Source: Cellulomonas wangsupingiae
Lineage (GTDB): Bacteria; Actinomycetota; Actinomycetes; Actinomycetales; Cellulomonadaceae
Assembly (NCBI RefSeq): GCF_024508275.1
Contig: NZ_CP101989.1
Coordinates: 1,674,001-1,738,000, forward strand
DNA length: 64,000 bases
Direction of reading: 5' to 3'
Positions 15,131 through 63,701 of this stretch are shown here, one piece after another. Numbering within the stretch: the stretch's first letter is position 1; each line of letters starts with the position of its first letter. The notes beneath the pieces are model-generated. The model was given only the letters and a program-made list of their open reading frames with translations, was not told the DNA's origin and searched no databases. The position numbers were made by a program, and so were the translations under genes.

Positions 15131-15490
15131 ATGGTCGTTCTGCGACGAGAGATCGGCGACGTCCTGCGGGACGCGCGCCAGCGCCAGGGCCGTACCCTGC
15201 GTGAGGTCTCCTCGGCCGCCCGCGTGTCGCTGGGCTACCTCAGCGAGGTCGAGCGCGGGCAGAAGGAGGCGTCGTCGGAGCTGCTGAGCAGCATCTGCGA
15301 CGCGCTGGACGTCCCGCTGTCCCTGGTGCTGCGCGAGGTGAGCGATCGCGTCGCCGTGGCCGAGGGCCTGCTGATCCCGGACACCGTCCCGGCGGACCTG
15401 ACGGCCTCGGCCGGCCTGGGTGTCGACCGCAACCTCGGCGGCGACGCCGGCTGGGCGATGCCCCGCTCGGAGCTCACGCCCGTCGGCTGA
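15131..15490 (+). CDS. clgR: ClgR-like XRE-family regulator
   Basis: A 119-residue protein with a helix-turn-helix of the Cro/C1 type: [20 protein letters not shown], then [20 protein letters not shown]. It closely resembles ClgR, which activates clp protease and repair genes in Streptomyces, corynebacteria and mycobacteria (family knowledge). Position after pgsA supports the assignment. The ATG at 15131 has a strong AGGAGG 4 nt upstream. Clp-sensitive ClgR proteins have an unstructured C-terminus; here the last 35 residues look unstructured and end in Val-Gly. Confidence 0.88.
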
Positions 15491-15497
15491 GCCCACC

Positions 15498-15519
15498 CGC
15501 GGCCGGACGCCCGGCCGCG
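15498..15519. terminator. hairpin between convergent clgR and nei
   Basis: CGCGGCCGG-ACGC-CCGGCCGCG, a 9-bp stem with a 4-nt loop, starts 8 nt after the clgR stop. It may serve both strands, as nei ends at 15571. Confidence 0.65.
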
Positions 15520-15570
15520 CGTCGTGGTGCCGGTGGCCGGACGGTCGCGGACCGCCGCCAGGGCACGACC

Positions 15571-16392
15571 TCACCGTCGGCCACGTACCTGGCACCCCGG
15601 GCACCAGTAGAGCCGGCGCTGCAGGGGCGGCTCGCCGACGTCGCCGCGTGCGACACGGGCGCCGCACCGCGTGCACGGGCGCCCTTCGCGGCCGTAGACG
15701 GCCGCGGTCGGCCGTCCGGAGGCGACCGACGACCGCAGCAGCGCGCGGGCCGCCCGCAGCACCTCGGCGGGATCGGTGACCGCGTCGGCGGGCGTCCACG
15801 GCCACCAGCCGCACGCGAACAGCGACTCGGCGGTGAAGATCGTGCCGATCCCGGCCACGACCCGCTGGTCGAGCAGCACCTCGGCGACCGGGCGTCCGCC
15901 CTGCGCCGCCCAGCGACGCACGGCCTCGGCGATGCCCGGCGTCGGCAGCTCCAGCACCGGGGGACCCGCCCACGGCACTCCCGGCGTCGTGTCGAAGTCG
16001 CCGTCCAGCACGTCGGGACCGAGGTGGGCGAGCAGGGTCGGCTCGGTACCCGTGGGCACCACGTCCAGCATGCCGAGCAGGTACCCGACGGCCGTCCACC
16101 GCTCGGTGCCCAGCACGGCGCGCACGTCGGGCGACCGCGCCCCTGCGCGCCGGTCCGCGCTCGGGACGATGCGCCACGACCCGTCCATGCGCAGGTGCGT
16201 GTGCAGGGTGCGGCCGTCGTCGAACCGGGTGAGCAGGTGCTTGCCGTACGGGCGCGTCCCCAGGACCGTGCGCCCCGTGAGGTCGACGGTGGCAGCCGTC
16301 GGCCAGCGCAGGTCGGCGCGCACGAGTCGGTGCCCCGCGAGGGCACGGTCGAGGTGCGCCGCCGCGCGTCGCAGCACGTCACCCTCGGGCAC
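15571..16392 (-). CDS. nei: Fpg/Nei-family DNA glycosylase/AP lyase (endonuclease VIII)
   Basis: A 273-residue repair enzyme. The N-terminus MPEGDVLRRAA carries the catalytic Pro2-Glu3 pair and is Nei-like rather than MutM-like. HLRMDGSWRI is the beta-strand DNA-binding region, and QRVVAGIGTIFTAESLF is the helix-two-turn-helix motif. A C-terminal zinc finger (CTRCGARV ... YWCPGCQ) is complete. It removes oxidised pyrimidines from DNA. The GTG start has GGGAG upstream. It lies 18 nt downstream of the lhr stop, so it is probably expressed with lhr, as in the M. tuberculosis lhr-nei pair. Confidence 0.93.
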   Translation of the reverse strand: MPEGDVLRRAAAHLDRALAGHRLVRADLRWPTAATVDLTGRTVLGTRPYGKHLLTRFDDGRTLHTHLRMDGSWRIVPSADRRAGARSPDVRAVLGTERWTAVGYLLGMLDVVPTGTEPTLLAHLGPDVLDGDFDTTPGVPWAGPPVLELPTPGIAEAVRRWAAQGGRPVAEVLLDQRVVAGIGTIFTAESLFACGWWPWTPADAVTDPAEVLRAARALLRSSVASGRPTAAVYGREGRPCTRCGARVARGDVGEPPLQRRLYWCPGCQVRGRR

Positions 16393-16410
16393 GCCGGCTC
16401 CCGTCCGTCG

Positions 16411-19400
16411 TCACGACGCCTGCAGCCGCAGGCCGCGCGGGGTCGTCAGGAAGCCGGCCGCGGCCAGCGCGACCGCCGCCGGCGAGCCGAGCACGTCGGC
16501 CGAGAGGACCTGCGCGCCGTCGATCCGCTCGACCGTGAGCCTGCCCGTGCGCCGCGCGCGCGCCGTCACGGCGAGCGCCTCGGCGGCGACCGCGAGCGTC
16601 GTCGTGTCGTCGGTGAACGTCAGGAGCGTGCGCCCGCCGCGCTCGAGGTAGAGCACCAGGGCACCGTCGACGAGCGTCACGAGCGCGCCGGCCTTGCGCC
16701 CCGGGCGGTGCCGGGCGCCGTCCCGCCCGTCCGGTGCGTCGGGCCACGCGAGCGCCGCACCGTACGGGTTGGCGGGGTCCGTGGCGGCCAGGACGACGGC
16801 CCACGGTGCGTCCTCCCGCGACGCGCGCGGCTCCGGTGCGCCGGGCGTCCACGCGCGCGGCCCGGACGGAGCGCCCCAGGCGGGTGGCGGTACGTCCTGC
16901 CACGGGAGCCGGGGACCGCTCGCAGGGGCGGCGTCCCGCCGGTCGGCGGCGCGCTGCCGGGCGCGCTCGACGACCTCCGCGTCGGTGCGGAGCCGGTCGA
17001 CGGCACCGGGCAGCGCGAACTGCGAGCCGCCCAGTCGCTCGACGAAGTAGCCGCGGCGCACCTGCCCCGACTGCTCGAGCGCGGTCAGCACGCGGTACAC
17101 GGCGGCGAACCGGCCGGCGACCCCCTCGGCGGGCGCCACCGCGCGCGTCAGCACGCCGTGCCGGTCGAGCAGCTGCGCCGCCAGGGCGTGCGCGCGCACG
17201 GTCACGTCCGGCTCACGTGCCGGCAGCAGGGACCAGCGCCCGGCCCCCGCGCCGGCCGCGGAGCCGGTCGCCCTGGCCCCGGCACCGTCCCGGACTCCGA
17301 CGGTCGGGCCGACCCGCGTGCCGGCCCGCAGACCCAGGCGGGGACGCAACGGGCGGCCGCGGGCGGGTGCGCTGCGCGTGCGGTGCGCGGTGGAGCCTCC
17401 CGCGAGCCACGTCCGCAGCGGGCCGAGGCCGTCGTTCGTCACCCGGCCCGCCCACACCAGGTCCCACAGCGCGGCGAGCACGGCGGGGGCGTCGGGCGGC
17501 GCGTCGTCGTCGAGCCACACGGCGGCCACGCGCTCGACGAGTGCGGGCAGGAACCAGGCCCCGCCCCCCTCGAGGGCACCGAGGACCGCGCGGTGCGTCC
17601 GGTCGCTCGCGGGGGCGTCGGGCTCGTCGAGGTCCGGCACCGGCGCGAGCGTGAGGTCCGCGACGGCTGTCGGGTGCAGGGACACCAGGCCGTCGTGCCC
17701 GGCGAGCGGCGCGTGACCCGCCCACAGCACCTCGCCCGCGGCGGTCAGCTCGTCGAGCATCGCCGGCACGTAGTCGGGCACGCGTGCGGGCAGCACGTGC
17801 GTCTCGAGCGCCGACGCCGGGACCGCGAAGCCCGCGAGCTGCTCGACGGCGCGTGCCACCGCGTCGACCCCGCGCAGGCCGGTGGGCCGCCTGCCCACCG
17901 GCTGCACGCCCTGCCACTGCGGCAGGAAGACGCCGAGGGACTGCGGGTCGACCGGCTCGACCTGGGCGCGCAGCGCCGCCAGGGAGCGCTGGCGCAGGCG
18001 GCGCAGCACGTCGGCGTCGCAGAACTCGTCGCCCGTTCCGCCCAGCACGTCCGGACGCAACCGGCCCTGCACGAGCACGCCCGAGGCCTCGAGCCGCCGC
18101 AGCACCTCGGTGACGACCGCGATCCCGAGGCCGAACCGCGCCGCGGCGCGGGCCGCCGGGAACGGGCCGTGCGTGCGCGCGTGGCGTCGCAGCAGGTCGG
18201 CCAGGGGATCCGGCAGGACCTCGGTGAAGACCTCCGGCACGCCGACGGGCAGCGCGACCCCGAGGGCGTCGCGCAGGCGTCCGGCGTCCTCGACGGCCGC
18301 CCACTGCTCGGCGCGGTCGGCCGGCAGACCGCTGATCCGGACGCGGATCGCGCGGCGCGCGGCCGCGAGCTCGTCGAGCCAGGCGGGCACGTCGTCCCGG
18401 ACCTCGGGACGTGTGCGCGCCGCGACCTCGTCGGCCGTCAGCGGCCCCTGGCGGCGCAGCACGTCGGCGACCTGCTCGATCGAGCCGGCCTGCCGGTCGG
18501 GCGCCGTGCCGGCCAGCTCGGCCTCCGTGCGCTCCACCGCCTCGGGGTCCAGCAGGTCGGCCAGCTGCGACTCCCCGCCGGTGCCCAGCAGCTCGGCGAG
18601 GAGGGTCGGGTCGAGCGTCAGGGCGGCGGCACGGCGCTCGGCCAGCGGCGCGTCACCCTCGTAGAGGAACTGCGCGGTGTAGCCGAACAGCAGGGACTGG
18701 GCGAAGGGTGACGGGTGCGGGGTGGTGACCTCGACGACGCGCACGCGGCCCGTGCCGACGTCGCGCATGAGCCCGACGAGCGCCTCGGTGTCGAAGTCGT
18801 CCTGCAGGCACTCGCGCACGGCCTCCAGCAGGATCGGGAAGTCCGGGTAGCGCGCCGCGACCTCGAGCAGCTGGGCCGCGCGCTGGCGCTGCTGCCACAG
18901 CGGCTGGCGGCGGTCCGGGCGGCGGCGCGGGAGCAGCAGCGCGCGCCCCGCCGCCTCGCGGAACCGTGCCGCGAACATCGCCGAGCTCCCGAGCTCGTCG
19001 CGGACCGACGCCAGCACCTCGTCCGGGTCGAGCAGGAGGTCCTCCAGCGTCAGCCGCGGCCCGCCGTCACCGTGACCGGCGTCGTCGCCCCACGCCTCGT
19101 CGGCGGCGCCGTCGAGGACGTCGGGGAGCCGCAGCACGATGCCGTCGTCGGCGTGCATCGCCGCGGCGTCGACCCCGTACCGCTCCCGCAGGCGCGCCGC
19201 CAGCACGAGCGCCCACGGCGCGTGGACGCGGGCGCCGTACGGCGAGTGCAGCACGATGCGCCAGTCACCCAGCTCGTCCCGGAACCGCTCGACCACCACC
19301 ACCGTGTCGCTCGGCAGCTGACCGGTGGCCTCCAGCTGCTCGCGCAGGTACGCCAGGAGGTTGTCGGCCGCCCACGCGTCGAGCCCGGCCGCCTCGACGC

Positions 19401-54658: not shown

Positions 54659-54704
54659 GACGAGGCCGTCCGGCCCGCACGGCGGCGGTCCGGACGGCCT
54701 CGTC
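54659..54704 (-). terminator. terminator hairpin of the CotH operon
   Basis: GACGAGGCCGTCCGG and its exact complement form a 15-bp stem with a 16-nt loop, 13 nt after the cotH stop on the minus strand and before serA. Confidence 0.75.
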
Positions 54705-54716
54705 GGAGCGGACCTG

Positions 54717-56801
54717 TCAGCCGGCCGCGCACGTCGGCGTCGGGGTGCCGAGGGTCCCCGACGCCGAGCCGATGAACCCGAACGTCGTGGTGGCGCCGGC
54801 CGCCAGCGCGCCGTTCCACGCGACGTTGCGGGCGGTGAGGCCCGGACCCGAGCCGGTCAGCGTGGCGTTCCACGCCTGGTTGACGCCGACGCCGGCGGGC
54901 AGCCCCAGCGTGACGGACCAGCCCGTGAGCGCACGCGCCCCCGCGGTGACGGTCACCTCGCCCTGGAACCCGCCCGGCCACGTCGAGACCGCCCGGAACG
55001 CCGCCGTGCACGCCTGGCCGCCGGGGGTCGGCGAGGGGCTCGGCGTCACGGACGGCGTCGGTGAGGCGGTGGGGGTGGGTGAGGTGGTGGGCGTGGGTGA
55101 GGCGGTGGGCGTGGGGCTCGGCGTGGGCGACGCGGTCGGCGTGGGCAGGGGCGTCACGGGTCCGCCCCACGCCGCCGTGGTGTCCAGCCAGGCGGCCCGG
55201 CGCAGCATCCAGTCCCGGAGCTGGTCGACCTGGCCGGTCCACGTCCCGGCGGTCGGGGTGATGAAGGGCCCGATCATCTGCGTCGACAGGTTCGGCCAGC
55301 GCTGGAAGTTCCGGGCCGCCGCGCCGCCGAGCGGTGCGGTCAGGGTGGACAGGTGCGAGCGCAGGGACGCGTCGGCCAGGGTCCCGCGGCGCAGCTCCTG
55401 CCAGCGGGTCCTGACGCGGTTGACGAACGCGGGGTCGTTCATGAGGACGGTGAACCAGTCGGTCGGGGGGTTCTGCCGGCTCTGCTGGTACTGCCAGCCG
55501 GACACCTGCTCGTTCTGGAAGTACCCGCCGACCCCGAACGTGAGGTCGAAGTCCCACAGCGGGCCGGCCGTGAGCAACCCGCCGCGGTCCTTGTAGAAGT
55601 ACTGGCTGCGGTAGTACGCGTCCATGTCGCGGCTGAGCTCGTTGACGATCACCAGGTCCACGAACGAGCCGACGTCGATGAGGGACGGGTAGCCGGTCGC
55701 GGGGTCCGCGCGGTTCGCGGAGTGGATCGCGTCGTTGACGCGGCCCACGTAGCCGGCGATGTAGTCGAGCTGGGCGGGCACGAGGTCGTCCGGGTCGTGG
55801 ACCTCGAGGTCGGACCAGCACGCCGACGCTCCCGTGCATGGCACCAGCGGCTGCTCGGCCGCCAGCCACTCGAACTTGACGATGTAGCCGCCCTCGACCT
55901 TCGGCGGGGTCACGTCCTGCGGGTCCAGCTTCTTCAGGTCGAGGCGGTTCTTCTGGTTCTTGATGGTCTCCTCGAGCATGTAGACGCCGCGGTAGTCGTT
56001 CGCCGCGACGGGCTGCGCGTCGTCGTTCACGTACACCTCGACGAGCCGGTAGCGGGGGGTGTGCAGACCCATCTCGCGGCCCAGGTCGTAGACCAGGGCC
56101 TCGCGCACCAGGGACTTGTCGGCGAACGGCCCGCGCAGGACCCAGTCGGACTCCGCGGGCATGCCGAAGAACGGCAGGTCCGCGTCGTCGCCGGCGTCGT
56201 CCCACAGCTCCAGGCGGTACGGCTTCTTGTCGAACATGCGGCTCGACTGCCCGCGGAGGCGGTACCCCGCTCGCGTCACCAGGGCGGGGGTCGCGGTCAG
56301 CGACGTGGTGCCGCCCGACGGCTGCAGCTCGACGACGGCCGACGCGTGGTAGTCGTCGCCGACGGCGCCCTTGCCGAACGAGTCCAGCACGAGCACCGGC
56401 AGGTCGTGCGTCGTCGTGACGGACGTCGCGACGTACTGCGCCGACGCGGGCTCGCCGCTGGCCGTGCCGTCGACGAAGGCCTGCGCGCGGACCTCCGTGC
56501 TGCGCGTCAGGCTCAGCGGCCCGGACGCGACGGGGGAGGAGGCCGTGGGCGCCGAGCCGTCGGTCGTGTAGCGCACCTGGGCGCCGCTCACCGACGTGCC
56601 GAGCGTGACCTGCAGCGTCCCGGTGAACGCGCGGCTGCTCACGGAGAACGTCACGTCCGCCGTGGGCTCGGCGTCGGTGGCCGCCGCCACGGCGGTGGTC
56701 GGTGTGGGTGCGCCGGCGGCGGCCGCCGGTGCGGCCAGGGGCACGGCCAGCGCGCAGGCCAGCACCGCCGCCCCGAGCATGCGGGTGTTCCGTCGTGACA
56801 T
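54717..56801 (-). CDS. secreted CotH-kinase-family protein with C-terminal cellulose-binding module (CBM2)
   Basis: A 694-residue exported protein. A signal peptide of about 30 residues (RMLGAAVLACALAVPLAAPAAAA) precedes a chitobiase-like beta domain (about 45-125, VRYTTDGSAPTASSPVASGP). The CotH domain follows (about 135-540) with RLRGQSSRMFDKKPYRLEL and the metal motif GPLWDFDLTFG. A Pro/Thr/Ser linker (about 548-592) leads to a CBM2 with paired cysteines at about 597 and 692. CotH is a secreted protein kinase in Bacillus spores; targets here are unknown. The CBM2 should tether it to cellulose or chitin-like glycans. GAGGAG precedes the ATG; VTC and DUF4956 genes lie just upstream. Confidence 0.88.
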   Translation of the reverse strand: MSRRNTRMLGAAVLACALAVPLAAPAAAAGAPTPTTAVAAATDAEPTADVTFSVSSRAFTGTLQVTLGTSVSGAQVRYTTDGSAPTASSPVASGPLSLTRSTEVRAQAFVDGTASGEPASAQYVATSVTTTHDLPVLVLDSFGKGAVGDDYHASAVVELQPSGGTTSLTATPALVTRAGYRLRGQSSRMFDKKPYRLELWDDAGDDADLPFFGMPAESDWVLRGPFADKSLVREALVYDLGREMGLHTPRYRLVEVYVNDDAQPVAANDYRGVYMLEETIKNQKNRLDLKKLDPQDVTPPKVEGGYIVKFEWLAAEQPLVPCTGASACWSDLEVHDPDDLVPAQLDYIAGYVGRVNDAIHSANRADPATGYPSLIDVGSFVDLVIVNELSRDMDAYYRSQYFYKDRGGLLTAGPLWDFDLTFGVGGYFQNEQVSGWQYQQSRQNPPTDWFTVLMNDPAFVNRVRTRWQELRRGTLADASLRSHLSTLTAPLGGAAARNFQRWPNLSTQMIGPFITPTAGTWTGQVDQLRDWMLRRAAWLDTTAAWGGPVTPLPTPTASPTPSPTPTASPTPTTSPTPTASPTPSVTPSPSPTPGGQACTAAFRAVSTWPGGFQGEVTVTAGARALTGWSVTLGLPAGVGVNQAWNATLTGSGPGLTARNVAWNGALAAGATTTFGFIGSASGTLGTPTPTCAAG
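55025..55155 (-). repeat. Pro-Thr-Ser linker repeat in cotH
   Basis: Tandem units of TASPTP and TPSPTP type are encoded by near-identical 12 to 18 bp repeats. Such linkers join catalytic and binding modules in Cellulomonas cellulases. Length is likely to vary between strains. Confidence 0.75.
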
Positions 56802-56829
56802 CGTCGTCTCCTCGGGTGCTCGTGCTCGG

Positions 56830-57636
56830 TCAGCCGTGCGCGTACGCCTCGGCGGCGGTCGCGCCGTGCGGCAGGAGGTGGCGGCGCAGGGTGCGGCGCC
56901 ACCGGGTCGCGGGCAGCTCCGGCTGCAGCGCCGCGAGACCCGTCGCGTACTTCGAGATCCGCAGCGGACGGTGCCCGTGCGCCCACAGCAGGCGGTCGGC
57001 GACCGAGGCCGTGGACCCCGTCTTCGTCTCGACGACCGCCAGGTGCCGCAGCTGCAGGGGACGACGGCCGTCGTGCCACGTCAGGTCGACGTCGACGGTC
57101 AGCCGGCTGTCGGTGTCCGGCAGCAGGACCGTGGCGCGGCGGTACCGCGTCACGAGGGTCGGGCCCCACCGCATCTCGTCGGCGGCCGTGATGCCGTGCG
57201 CGGTCAGGGTGGCCGTGACGAACGGGAGCGCGGGCGCGACGGTGGCGCGGTCGTCGAGCAGGTGCGGGACGCGGTCCTTGACCGTCGTGCCGCGCGCGCC
57301 GCGCGTCTTGACCTCGATCCAGCACTGCGCGGAGTCGAGGTAGGTGCGGGTCCGGACCTTGAACCGGCGCCGGCGCCGGTGGGCCGCGAGGTGGTAGGCG
57401 AGCAGGTCCGGGGTGTCGAAGTAGACGGACTCGTACTCGAACAGGCGCCGCGCGCCGATCTCGAGGACCTGCGCCCCGTGCGGCAGCGACGCGACGAGCG
57501 TGCCGACGTCCTCGACGGGCACCAGGTACTTGCGGTCCACGCGTGTCAGCAGACCGGCGCGCTCCACGAGCTCCTCGAGCCCGACGGGGACGAGCCGGGC
57601 GACGGGCTCCGCGAGCAGGTCGGCGCCCGGCGTCAC
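56830..57636 (-). CDS. VTC-type polyphosphate polymerase domain protein
   Basis: A 268-residue protein of the VTC/CYTH triphosphate-tunnel fold. The basic and acidic tunnel residues are visible in LLTRVDRKYLVP, FEYESVYFDTPDLLAYHLAAH, RRRFKVRTRTYLD, CWIEVKTRGARG, LAVVETKTGS and RISKYATGL. In yeast, Vtc4 makes polyphosphate from ATP with such a domain; bacterial stand-alone members are not well studied. The GTG at 57636 overlaps the DUF4956 stop by 4 nt (GTGA). It is cytoplasmic by sequence and would rely on the DUF4956 partner for membrane contact. Confidence 0.85.
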   Translation of the reverse strand: MTPGADLLAEPVARLVPVGLEELVERAGLLTRVDRKYLVPVEDVGTLVASLPHGAQVLEIGARRLFEYESVYFDTPDLLAYHLAAHRRRRRFKVRTRTYLDSAQCWIEVKTRGARGTTVKDRVPHLLDDRATVAPALPFVTATLTAHGITAADEMRWGPTLVTRYRRATVLLPDTDSRLTVDVDLTWHDGRRPLQLRHLAVVETKTGSTASVADRLLWAHGHRPLRISKYATGLAALQPELPATRWRRTLRRHLLPHGATAAEAYAHG

Positions 57637-58247
57637 GATCCCGTGCCCGTCGTCGTCGTGCGCGCGGCCTCGCGTCCCGCCTGCACGTGCCCCCGACGCC
57701 GGGCCGGGGGCACCGTCTCGTACCGCACGTCGACCCAGGTGGTGTCGTTGACCAGGTCGACGCGCTGGACGGCGACCTGGTGGACGCGGGCACCGAGCAT
57801 GCCCTCGAGCCGGGCCACGAGCGCCACCCGGTCGAGCACGGCGCCGTCGAGCACGAGCTCCTGGCGCTGGTGGCGGCGCAGCACGCGCGGGTGGTCGCCG
57901 ACGAGCACGGCCAGGAGCAGCAGCGCCATGAAGGCGATCGAGTGCCACAGGATCTCACCGGGAAGCGCTCCCAGGATGCCCAGCGCGAGCGCGGCGAAGT
58001 AGTACGCCACCTCGCGCTGGTCGACCTCCGTCGACCGCAGCCGGATGATCGAGAGCACGCCGAACAGGCCGAGCCCGAGGCCCGCGCCGATGGTCGCCGA
58101 GGCCAGCGTCGAGGCGACGGCGAGCACGCCGACGTTCATGCCGAGGAACGCGACCACGAGGTCGCGGCGGCGGTGCCGGCGGAAGTACGTCCACGTGAGC
58201 ACTCCCACGGCGACGAGGTCGGTGCCGATGAGGACGAGCTGATCCAT
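57633..58247 (-). CDS. DUF4956 membrane protein
   Basis: A 204-residue protein. About four hydrophobic helices in the first 120 residues include the family's LGLFGVLSIIRLRSTEVDQREVAYYFAALALGILGA. A soluble C-terminal domain of about 85 residues follows (RLEGMLGARVHQVAVQRVDLVNDTTWVDVRYE). The family is known mainly through its linkage to VTC-domain proteins; it may be a channel or membrane scaffold for polyphosphate. GGGGGAG precedes the ATG. First gene of the operon. Confidence 0.85.
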   Translation of the reverse strand: MDQLVLIGTDLVAVGVLTWTYFRRHRRRDLVVAFLGMNVGVLAVASTLASATIGAGLGLGLFGVLSIIRLRSTEVDQREVAYYFAALALGILGALPGEILWHSIAFMALLLLAVLVGDHPRVLRRHQRQELVLDGAVLDRVALVARLEGMLGARVHQVAVQRVDLVNDTTWVDVRYETVPPARRRGHVQAGREAARTTTTGTGS

Positions 58248-60882: not shown

Positions 60883-62100
60883 GTGCACGGCTCTGCGGCC
60901 AGCGAGGACGACGTGCACTCCGGCGCACCCGGGGACGAGGACTCACCCCTGCGGATCCTGGTCGTGGAGGACGACGAGGGGGACGCGCTCCTCGTCCGCG
61001 AGCACCTGCAGGACGGCGGGCTCGCGCACGAGACGGTCTGGGTGCGCACGGTGGACGACGCGCTCCTGCACCTCGACGCCGACTGCGTGCTGCTCGACCT
61101 CGGGCTGCCGGACGCGATGGGGCTCAGCGCGCTGCAGCGCGTCCTCGAGGCGGGCGCGCCCCCGGTCGTGGTGCTCACCGGTCTGACGGACACCGACGCG
61201 GGGGTCGAGGCCGTCGCCGCCGGCGCCCAGGACTTCCTCGCCAAGGGCGACGTCGACCCGGACCTGCTGGCACGGGCCGTGCGGTACGCCGTGCAGCGCC
61301 GCCGCCTGGAGGACACCGGGCGCGCCCTGTACCGCAGCCTGGTGCGCGCCGCGGAGACGACGCGCCTCGAGCGTGCGCTGCTGCCGACGCCGGCCGTCAC
61401 GGACACCCGCATGGAGGTCCGGGTGGGGTACCGGGCGGGTCGCGACGGCCTGCTGGGCGGCGACTTCTACGACGTCGTCGAGCGGCCGGACGGCACCGTC
61501 CTCGCGATGGTGGGGGACGTGTGCGGCCACGGCCCCGACGAGGCGGCGCTGGGCGCGACGCTGCGCACGGCGTGGCGCACCCTGGTGCTCGCGGGCATCC
61601 CGGCCGACGAGATCCTCGGGCTGCTGGAGCGCGTGCTGGCCGCCGAGCGCGCGCGCCCCGAGATCTTCACCACGGTCTCGATGCTGGCCGTCCTGCCCGA
61701 CCGCCGCACCGCCGACCTGTACCTCGCGGGGCACCCCGTCCCGCTGCTGCTGGGCTCGCCGTCGGTGCTGCTGCCCTCCGGCCGTCGTGGGCGGGCCCTG
61801 GGCGTGCCCGTGGGCGGTGGCTGGCCGGCGCAGCGCCTCGACCTCGGTCCGTCGTGGCGGGTCCTGCTCTACACCGACGGGCTGCTCGAGGCGACGGTCG
61901 GCGACGGCTCGCAGCGTCTGGGCAAGGCGGGCCTGCTCGACGTCGCCCACCGCACGATGCTCGGCACGGCCGAGACCGACGGTGCCGTGCGCCCCGACGA
62001 GGACCCCGTGCTCGGGCGGATGCTCTCGGCCGTGCGCGCGCGCCACGGCGGGGACCTCGTGGACGACGCGGCCGTCGTGCTCATCGGGTGCGACGCGTGA
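60883..62100 (+). CDS. response-regulator receiver fused to PP2C/SpoIIE phosphatase
   Basis: A 405-residue two-domain protein. The receiver domain (about 20-145) has LRILVVEDDEGDALLV, the phospho-acceptor Asp72 in VLLDLGLP and the late FLAKGDVD. The SpoIIE/RsbU phosphatase domain (about 170-405) has GGDFYDVVERPDG, VGDVCGHGPDEAAL and DDAAVVLIG with metal-binding Asp residues. It should dephosphorylate a Ser/Thr anti-sigma antagonist under control of the receiver. A GTG at 60883 is preferred: GGAAGG lies 6 nt before it, but directly abuts an in-frame ATG at 60877. Confidence 0.88.
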   Translation: MHGSAASEDDVHSGAPGDEDSPLRILVVEDDEGDALLVREHLQDGGLAHETVWVRTVDDALLHLDADCVLLDLGLPDAMGLSALQRVLEAGAPPVVVLTGLTDTDAGVEAVAAGAQDFLAKGDVDPDLLARAVRYAVQRRRLEDTGRALYRSLVRAAETTRLERALLPTPAVTDTRMEVRVGYRAGRDGLLGGDFYDVVERPDGTVLAMVGDVCGHGPDEAALGATLRTAWRTLVLAGIPADEILGLLERVLAAERARPEIFTTVSMLAVLPDRRTADLYLAGHPVPLLLGSPSVLLPSGRRGRALGVPVGGGWPAQRLDLGPSWRVLLYTDGLLEATVGDGSQRLGKAGLLDVAHRTMLGTAETDGAVRPDEDPVLGRMLSAVRARHGGDLVDDAAVVLIGCDA

Positions 62101-63701
62101 GCGCACCGACGACGGCCGCGCGCCCGCGCCGCGCGACGACCCTGCGGCAGCGCCTGACGGCGCTGCTCGTCGCGGCCGGTGCGCTGCTGGGCGTCGTGCT
62201 CGTGCTCGCCGGGTTCGTGCTGTCGCGCGCGCTGGCGTCCCAGCACGAGGTGACGGAGGTGTACTTCGACGCCGTCACGATGGCCGACGCCGCCTACGTG
62301 CGGCTCGTGGACGCCGAGACGTCGGTCCGCGGCTACGCGCTCACGGGCAACGAGATCACCCTGGAGCTGTACGACCGGTCGGTCGAGGACGAGGTGACGT
62401 TCACCTCGCTGGCCGAGGAGCTCGCGGCCATCGCGCCGCAGGCGGACCTCGTCGAGCAGGCGCGGACCGCGGCCGAGGCGGCCGAGCGGTGGCAGGACGA
62501 GTTCGCGGCCCCGACGGTGGCCGAGGTCCGGGCGGGCGGCCCGGGGGCCGTGTCGCCGGAGGAGGTCGAGGCCGGCCTGCTGCTGTTCGACGAGGCGCGC
62601 GTCGCGATCGAGGCGTACATGGCCGAGCTGCGCGAGGCGCGCGCGAACGCGGTCGACGAGCTCGAGACCTGGACCACGGCGACCGGCGCGCTGGTGCTGG
62701 TGCTGGTCGTCGCCGCGGTCGTGGCCGGCGTCTCGCTGTGGTTCGCGCTGCGCCGGTGGGTGCTGGGCCCGGTCACCGCGCTCGGTCAGGCGACCCGCGC
62801 GGTCACGCAGGGCGAGCTCGGTCACGTCGTGCGCGTCGAGGGCCCGGGCGAGATCGAGGCGCTCGCGGCCGACGTCGAGCGGATGCGGCTGGGCCTGGTG
62901 ACGCAGCTCGCCGAGCTGCGGACCTCGCGCGAGGAGATCTCCGAGGCGCACCAGCGGCTGACCGAGCAGGCCGAGGAGCTGCGCAGGTCCAACCGGGACC
63001 TCGAGCAGTTCGCCTACGTCGCGTCGCACGACCTGCAGGAGCCCTTGCGCAAGGTCGCGAGCTTCACCCAGCTCCTGCAGAAGCGCTACGGCGGTCAGCT
63101 CGACGAGCGTGCGGACCAGTACATCGACTTCGCGGTCGACGGGGCCAAGCGCATGCAGCGGCTCATCCAGGACCTGCTCGGGTTCTCCCGGGTCGGACGC
63201 GTGGGCGGCGAGGTCACCGACGTCGACCTCGCGGCCGCGCTCGGACGCGCCCAGGACCAGCTCTCCGAGCGCATCGAGGAGGCGGGGGCCGTCGTCACGC
63301 ACGACGACCTGCCCGTGGTGCGCGGCGAGGAGCCGCTGCTCGTGCAGCTGTTCCAGAACCTCATCGGCAACGCCGTGAAGTTCGGGCACCCCGACCGGCC
63401 CCCGCAGGTGCACGTGAGCGCACGCCGGGTGGAGGGCGCCTGGGAGCTCGAGGTCCGCGACAACGGGATCGGCATCGAGCCCCAGTACGTCGACCGCGTG
63501 TTCGTCATCTTCCAGCGGCTGCACGCCAAGGACCTCTACGAGGGCACCGGGATCGGGCTGGCACTGTGCAAGAAGATCGTCGAGTTCCACGGCGGTCGCA
63601 TCTGGATCCCGGAGACCGACGGGGAGGGGACCACCATCCGCTGGACCCTGCCGGTCGCCGAGGACGAGACCCCCGGCGACGGGGACGAAGGACGGAGCTG
63701 A
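62097..63701 (+). CDS. CHASE3-HAMP sensor histidine kinase
   Basis: A 534-residue kinase. The first membrane helix (LTALLVAAGALLGVVLVLAGFVL) and second (GALVLVLVVAAVVAGVSLWFAL) frame an extracellular CHASE3 domain with DAETSVRGYALTGNE. HAMP and a coiled coil follow, then the H-box YVASHDLQEPLRKVASF with His311. The ATPase motifs are NLIGNAVKFG, DNGIGI and GTGIGLALCKKIVEF. The kinase core is of the phytochrome/HWE-neighbour type that often partners small receiver proteins. The GTG start overlaps the previous stop (GTGA). Confidence 0.92.
   Translation: MSAPTTAARPRRATTLRQRLTALLVAAGALLGVVLVLAGFVLSRALASQHEVTEVYFDAVTMADAAYVRLVDAETSVRGYALTGNEITLELYDRSVEDEVTFTSLAEELAAIAPQADLVEQARTAAEAAERWQDEFAAPTVAEVRAGGPGAVSPEEVEAGLLLFDEARVAIEAYMAELREARANAVDELETWTTATGALVLVLVVAAVVAGVSLWFALRRWVLGPVTALGQATRAVTQGELGHVVRVEGPGEIEALAADVERMRLGLVTQLAELRTSREEISEAHQRLTEQAEELRRSNRDLEQFAYVASHDLQEPLRKVASFTQLLQKRYGGQLDERADQYIDFAVDGAKRMQRLIQDLLGFSRVGRVGGEVTDVDLAAALGRAQDQLSERIEEAGAVVTHDDLPVVRGEEPLLVQLFQNLIGNAVKFGHPDRPPQVHVSARRVEGAWELEVRDNGIGIEPQYVDRVFVIFQRLHAKDLYEGTGIGLALCKKIVEFHGGRIWIPETDGEGTTIRWTLPVAEDETPGDGDEGRS

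Follow-up and report, generated by a model that had tools for sequence, protein, structure and literature searches.

What is achieved by an operon that joins a membrane protein of the DUF4956 family, a VTC-type tunnel enzyme and an exported CotH protein ending in a cellulose-binding domain? The question is raised by a locus of Cellulomonas wangsupingiae located in a 64,000-nucleotide stretch of DNA, hereafter the window (positions 1674001-1738000 of NZ_CP101989.1, the single 4.12-Mb contig of this genome). We found that the DUF4956-VTC pair is the real unit of the locus and that the place of the exported third protein is taken either by CotH or by a Cthe_2159 protein. We propose, with a probability of roughly 0.38, that the operon encodes a phosphate-polymer module coupled to the membrane, whose exported partner is anchored on glycan. 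The three genes lie in the order DUF4956, VTC, CotH, and their coordinates, domains and junctions, as described in an initial annotation of the window, are all present in the sequence:

57633-58247, minus strand: DUF4956 gene, 204 aa; PF16316, 195 bits (cut-off 30.6)
56830-57636, minus strand: VTC gene with a GTG start, 268 aa; PF09359, 85.3 bits (cut-off 23); its 4-nt overlap with the DUF4956 gene reads GTGA
56802-56829, minus strand: gap of 28 nt between the VTC and CotH genes, with a GAGGAG ribosome-binding site ahead of the CotH ATG
54717-56801, minus strand: CotH gene, 694 aa; PF08757, 215.7 bits; PF00553 (CBM_2), 73.8 bits; PF13290, 54.1 bits

The initial annotation had proposed a search for conserved co-occurrence across Actinomycetota, and for DUF4956 and VTC such co-occurrence is strict. 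Among 198 Actinomycetota genomes, DUF4956 is present in 20 and VTC in the identical 20 (17 of 148 genera for each family), which corresponds to a hypergeometric probability of about 8e-28 if relatedness is ignored. All 23 DUF4956 matches have a VTC match within 1 kb on the same strand; this adjacency count kept four VTC fragment matches, two in genome G174 and two in G186. Among 14 named control genomes, the same three match both families, including Bacteroides ihuae and Methanosarcina acetivorans. Corynebacterium glutamicum, also among the controls, has matches to all three families, CotH included. In a species-genome collection, we confirmed 563 loci and analysed the 80 best, whose titles look actinobacterial with one exception (Sporosarcina). 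The final counts for these 80 loci come from a six-frame profile search, which covers five loci with uncalled cores, and the pair is intact in 78 of them. Gene calls tell the same story: 75 cores were called, VTC is adjacent in 72, and the 4-nt overlap recurs in 66 of these 72. One of the two loci without VTC carries CotH and the other neither CotH nor Cthe_2159. PPK1 is present in 16 of the 20 DUF4956-VTC genomes of the phylum sample, C. wangsupingiae included (one match), so that VTC is not their sole enzyme of polyphosphate type, which argues that VTC serves a special purpose.

The third gene is more variable. CotH occurs in 17 of the 198 genomes, 16 of which are among the 20 with DUF4956; it lies within 5 kb of 16 of the 23 DUF4956 matches and shares the strand with 12 of these, and 18 of the 24 CotH matches are near DUF4956 by the same measure. 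At five of the seven DUF4956 sites without a CotH gene at this distance, Cthe_2159 adjoins the pair (G027, G066, G142, G174 and a second copy in the C. wangsupingiae genome, at 150 kb); neither gene was seen by the pair in G108 and G147, where CotH is on another contig. The 78 paired loci contain CotH within 6 kb on either strand in 40 cases, Cthe_2159 in 32, both in two and neither in four, one of these four being a contig of only 3.1 kb. Because the 80 loci split in this way, CotH is best described as one of two alternative exported glycan-linked partners, and CotH as the defining third gene is ruled out by the 32 of 80 loci in which Cthe_2159 stands in that place. When the two core proteins are joined and placed on a tree (74 rows, some long branches being unsure), at least three changes between CotH and Cthe_2159 are required, starred branches forcing only one or two per label. 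Since few changes are needed, the third partner has been mostly inherited, with few exchanges, and frequent partner swapping is ruled out.

The Cthe_2159 rows that we scanned contain PF14262 in 33 of 33 cases and CBM_2 in one; four of the 36 collected rows had been dropped as split calls (L126 twice, L129 twice) and the C. wangsupingiae copy added. They are related to the solved structures 4peu and 4phb. Binding of cellulose and polygalacturonate has been reported for Cthe_2159, and both CotH and Cthe_2159 are among the Pfam domains that set anaerobic gut fungi apart (PMC6712302); ligand recognition by Cthe_2159 needs calcium (PMC8746771). In one locus (L047, 4761-10907), a CotH protein and two Cthe_2159 proteins are encoded around VTC-DUF4956.

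Both arrangements are found within the C. wangsupingiae genome, which has three DUF4956, three VTC and two CotH matches, each DUF4956 adjoining a VTC. Copy 1 is the window operon with CotH-CBM2. Copy 2, at 150 kb (L009, 5200-8528), consists of a paralogous DUF4956-VTC pair followed by Cthe_2159 (PF14262, 316 bits) in place of CotH. Copy 3, at 3.73 Mb (L010, 6962-10188), is divergent and has a reversed core order, VTC-DUF4956-CotH; a TetR gene overlaps the end of its CotH gene. The nearest relative of the window DUF4956 protein among the named loci, from Cellulomonas avistercoris, is 90% identical, although a very near record may be missing there.

The VTC protein has VTC as its sole domain above cut-off and no hydrophobic segment; the SPX and transmembrane domains that belong to the same chain in eukaryotes are absent. 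When its profile was compared with solved structures, Vtc4 came first (3g3q, 77.9 bits), ahead of Vtc2 (40.5 bits), Vtc3 (28.5-29.2 bits) and an inorganic triphosphatase (14.5 bits). In the profile alignment, R95, R97 and E203 correspond to Vtc4 R264, R266 and E426, the positions mutated to inactivate Vtc4 (R264A/R266A/E426N; PMC9911596). Across 74 loci, R95 and R97 never vary and E203 is kept in 73, the remaining locus having a gap; each of the 18 tunnel positions that we checked is kept in at least 73 of the 74. The claim of intact VTC motifs in the initial annotation is therefore upheld against the catalytic Vtc4. The name 'polyphosphate polymerase' of bacterial VTC-like proteins is one given by annotation.

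The DUF4956 protein has the following organization, as judged by hydropathy:

57633-58247, minus strand: DUF4956 protein with a hydrophobic N-terminal part (about residues 1-123), a basic RRHRRR loop (residues 23-28) and a polar C-terminal part

Two of its arginines, R69 and R71, are invariant in 17 of 17 aligned relatives. The DUF4956 paralogue of copy 3 scores around the cut-off for MgtC (31.6 and 30.3 bits, cut-off 31.4), and MgtC is absent from the Pfam matches listed for the window protein.

The CotH protein combines an export signal, a kinase-like domain and two carbohydrate-associated domains:

56718-56801, minus strand: putative Sec signal peptide (about residues 1-28, ending in APAAAA), read from the sequence
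56451-56630, minus strand: CHB_HEX_C_1/Fn3-associated domain (residues 58-117; 54.1 and 39.1 bits), which the initial annotation had not listed
55185-56261, minus strand: CotH kinase-like domain (residues 181-539), matched by profile to Bacillus cereus CotH 5jd9/5jda
55620-55622, minus strand: Asp394, which profile alignment to 5jd9 places at the catalytic Asp of Bacillus CotH
55605-55607, minus strand: Ser399, at the position of the catalytic-loop Asn in profile alignments to 5jd9
55551-55553, minus strand: Asp417 of the WDFD motif, 23 residues past Asp394, equivalent of the second (metal-site) Asp by profile alignment
55020-55151, minus strand: Pro/Thr/Ser-rich linker (about residues 551-594) ahead of CBM2, read from the sequence
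54735-55010, minus strand: CBM2 cellulose-binding domain (residues 598-689; 73.8 bits)

The only hydrophobic segment, determined on a 687-aa gene call, is N-terminal. With the putative signal peptide at one end and CBM2 at the other, the protein agrees with its earlier description as an exported CotH ending in CBM2. Aligned to the exoglycanase CBM2 1exg, the CBM2 domain keeps the Trp residues of STW, QAW and VAW, the three surface Trp of such domains. This fusion is widespread. We compared two sets: a list of 120 homologues shown of 481 (the window protein included), for which only the 8000 candidates sharing most words were scored, and 40 locus proteins, comprising the window protein and 39 from the loci. 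CBM_2 is listed for all 120 and found in 32 of the 40, which rules out a one-off fusion; CHB_HEX_C_1 is found in 37 of the 40. The match of the kinase-like domain to 5jd9/5jda reaches 89.3 bits with a broad set of sequences and 19.2 bits with CBM2-type domains alone. Asp394 is shared by all 120 listed homologues and by 38 of the 40 locus proteins, and Asp417 by all 120 and all 40; K192 and D419 are also kept in all 120. In Bacillus subtilis, CotH needs D228, the D228Q form being inactive (PMC7821199).

The three families have already been described together. CotH, a polyphosphate polymerase, DUF4956 and DUF4832 form an accessory group of Gram-positive Pel operons, and the triad accompanies Pel in streptococci, clostridia and bifidobacteria (PMC7112168). 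In Streptococcus intermedius, deletion of SIR_1592, whose product has four transmembrane segments and an ACT domain and is presumably DUF4956, leads to more Pel and less aggregation, and deletion of SIR_1594 (CotH with FN3) leads to less Pel and less aggregation (PMC12345266). The authors of that study state that they met this arrangement nowhere but next to Pel; the loci analysed here are the triad outside Pel, and it is therefore not confined to Pel loci. The likeness to the Pel group is clear, with the same three families adjacent, an exported CotH, a multispan DUF4956-like protein and a VTC-type polymerase. However, the published group is contiguous with pelDEADAFG, whereas PelG, the one pel gene sought across the whole C. 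wangsupingiae genome, has no match there, and Cthe_2159 can take the third place; in addition, S. intermedius CotH ends in FN3 and the window CotH in CBM2. Membership of the window copy in a Pel operon is ruled out by the missing PelG together with the absence of Pel genes among the Pfam-scanned neighbours.

The NELoc-2 locus of Clostridium perfringens similarly has VTC and CotH as neighbours, but with two VTC copies, genes named 'tubulin', which may be DUF4956, and a chitin synthase/glycosyltransferase (PMC2879425). Elsewhere, DUF4956 is named in expression lists (PMC6848847, PMC10434189). The system can thus only in part be called undescribed, as the initial annotation had it, since the triad and its mutant phenotypes are published. 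A literature search, outside which most subscription papers lay, found no stand-alone DUF4956-VTC-CotH form, no alternation with Cthe_2159 and no link between DUF4956 and Cthe_2159; CBM2-CotH was not searched as such.

How might such a module work? In yeast, the VTC complex couples cytosolic synthesis to translocation via a basic transmembrane channel (PMC9911596). The window VTC shares with it the tunnel domain, including the residue positions at which Vtc4 was inactivated, and a membrane partner; it differs in having no SPX domain, in the separation of the tunnel and membrane parts and in the identity of the membrane part, DUF4956. We suggest that the soluble VTC protein works at the cytoplasmic face of the membrane, where its tunnel would extend a polyphosphate-like chain from nucleoside triphosphate. 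DUF4956 would correspond to the transmembrane part of the yeast complex, as a membrane subunit at which VTC docks and which lets the product through or controls it; its basic loop and the invariant R69 and R71 would fit this role. The third product, exported and holding a glycan, would then meet the polymer outside, CotH-CBM2 doing so here and Cthe_2159 elsewhere. That the third protein is exported and glycan-linked suggests that the product, which may be polyphosphate, or its phosphate matters at the cell surface, where CotH may transfer phosphate rather than only bind.

Several observations weigh against this proposal. At the level of the enzyme, much of the basic tunnel is common to tunnel enzymes in general, so that a polymerase cannot be told from a triphosphatase by its residues alone. 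In S. intermedius, deletion of the polyphosphate polymerase gene SIR_1593, unlike that of its DUF4956-like and CotH neighbours, is accompanied by no reported change in the available part of PMC12345266, and this counts against a strong role in the conditions used there. For DUF4956, a channel by analogy only, the search for solved relatives returned nothing beyond two designed proteins (E 0.13 and 0.64), and in hhalign comparisons with a three-sequence MgtC alignment the window type reached 0.6% and the broad set 12%, both weak. With the paralogue of copy 3 scoring around the cut-off, DUF4956 is not established as an MgtC relative.

The CotH protein itself also calls for caution. Five positions past Asp394, Ser399 replaces an Asn, which we take to be the metal-binding Asn of the kinase catalytic loop. 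All 120 listed homologues have Ser at this position, as do 37 of the 40 locus proteins, the other three having Asn. The CotH motifs had been called intact; this holds for Asp394 and Asp417 and fails for the loop Asn. As both Asp residues are kept and the Asn is replaced across the clade, we argue for a changed rather than a decayed site, although the protein may be a pseudokinase. Bacillus CotH, the spore-coat kinase of 5jd9/5jda, has the same kinase-like domain and both Asp positions, and differs in that the window protein is exported with CBM2 and chitobiase C-terminal domains and has Ser for the loop Asn. We infer that CotH could be a working kinase fed by the membrane part, and the Asn-to-Ser change cautions against it.

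The linkage of CotH to the pair, partial in the phylum sample (16 of 23 DUF4956 matches), is looser in the family of the window. Among 61 genomes of this family, DUF4956 is present in 38 and CotH in 11, all among the 38, leaving 27 of 38 DUF4956 genomes without CotH. Of the 12 CotH matches in the family, no more than 5 have DUF4956 within 5 kb; among the seven unlinked ones, six sit on a different contig and the seventh is separated from it by 273 kb, some contigs being short. Low-scoring CotH types are often located elsewhere than DUF4956; only two family matches exceed 200 bits, the window protein and one other, and both are near DUF4956. CotH being rare in the family and mostly away from DUF4956, we consider it optional. 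The earlier reading of the operon, a polymer or phosphate supply for a glycan-held kinase, is thus partly supported: a lack of conserved co-occurrence, which would have refuted it, is contradicted for the pair and in part for CotH, and the VTC residues are intact, but the loop Asn of CotH is replaced.

The surroundings of the operon and of related loci were also inspected. The following feature lies beyond the 3' end of the CotH gene:

54659-54704, minus strand: hairpin 3' of cotH with a 15-bp outer stem, a terminator candidate without a T-tract

The initial annotation had placed a terminator here. The 96-nt hairpin region folds strongly (-64.1 kcal/mol, z -4.1 against shuffles, of which 1 in 200 was equally good), but it has no T-tract and was not reported by a consensus terminator scan; neither a consensus promoter nor a consensus terminator was reported at the ends of the operon. 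On the same strand, the operon is flanked upstream by a UvrD-type helicase gene and downstream by a 2-hydroxyacid dehydrogenase gene with an ACT domain, as identified by Pfam. Beyond the helicase gene, at 60883-63701 of the window, Pfam identifies a response regulator with a SpoIIE-type phosphatase domain and then a CHASE3 histidine kinase, with no evident link to the operon. Response-regulator and histidine-kinase clusters are found near, and divergent from, the pair in six other loci (L033, L035 and L040-L043; Pfam for L041 only, OmpR-type), and the two-component systems of these six loci are possible regulators of the pair. Six of the 80 loci (L099, L100, L121, L123, L129 and L130; Pfam for L121 only) hold both a cluster of NAGPA phosphodiester glycosidases and a GtrA/glycosyltransferase-like cluster. 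A LytR_cpsA_psr gene lies about 3 kb past copy 3 (L010, 13496-14695, by Pfam), and a gene of the same cluster is near the L047 locus (15135-16499). The LytR_cpsA_psr family is tied to wall-polymer attachment, and a link of these two loci to wall polymers is possible.

Other explanations have to be set beside the proposed phosphate-polymer module. The operon could tune the amount, release or stickiness of a polysaccharide made elsewhere, with DUF4956 as a membrane regulator and CotH acting on the polysaccharide or its synthase. The triad beside Pel in other Gram-positives (PMC7112168) and the altered Pel levels and reduced aggregation of the S. intermedius DUF4956-like and CotH mutants (PMC12345266) point in this direction, as do the glycosidase and glycosyltransferase-like clusters of the six loci and the LytR_cpsA_psr gene near copy 3. 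However, the C. wangsupingiae genome has no PelG match, the window operon sits between a helicase and a dehydrogenase gene, and Pfam identified no glycan synthase among five genes around it and 17 called genes around the other copies, a set that does not include every called gene. We regard this explanation as possible but doubtful. It is unlikely, in turn, that VTC-DUF4956, with an MgtC-like membrane part, forms a unit that senses or hydrolyses phosphate or triphosphate, and that CotH is a cellulose-binding pseudokinase adhesin. The paralogue at the MgtC cut-off, the OmpR-type two-component genes adjoining the pair in several loci (Pfam for L041) and the replaced loop Asn of the listed CotH homologues would fit such a unit, but the VTC profile fits the catalytic Vtc4 far better than the triphosphatase, the hhalign comparison with MgtC is weak, and K192, D394, D417 and D419 are kept throughout the listed CotH proteins.

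Still less probable is that CotH-CBM2 acts on cellulose or chitin by itself and shares no more than a transcript with the pair, so that the operon has no functional meaning. CotH is absent from many DUF4956-VTC loci, and 6 of 24 phylum matches and 7 of 12 family matches are not within 5 kb of DUF4956, some on short contigs. Against this stand the 18 of 24 phylum matches that are near, the 16 of 17 CotH genomes that are among the 20 with DUF4956, the presence of DUF4956 in all 11 family CotH genomes and the proximity of both high-scoring family matches to it. A more specific form of the phosphate-polymer proposal, which we offer as a long shot, would place polyphosphate at the cell surface: VTC would make and DUF4956 export it, CotH, held by CBM2 on cellulose or on the cell's own beta-glucan, would use it as phosphate donor instead of ATP, which is scarce outside, through an adapted Asp/Ser site, and Cthe_2159 would be a calcium-dependent holder of the polyanion in the sister operons.

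Through the loci described here, VTC-like proteins of bacteria are tied to a single membrane partner and to either of two exported proteins linked to glycan, so that the purpose of their product and its possible exit from the cell can now be tested. If polyphosphate is indeed exported by this route, it would offer an answer to the question of where secreted proteins with a kinase fold obtain their phosphate outside the cell.

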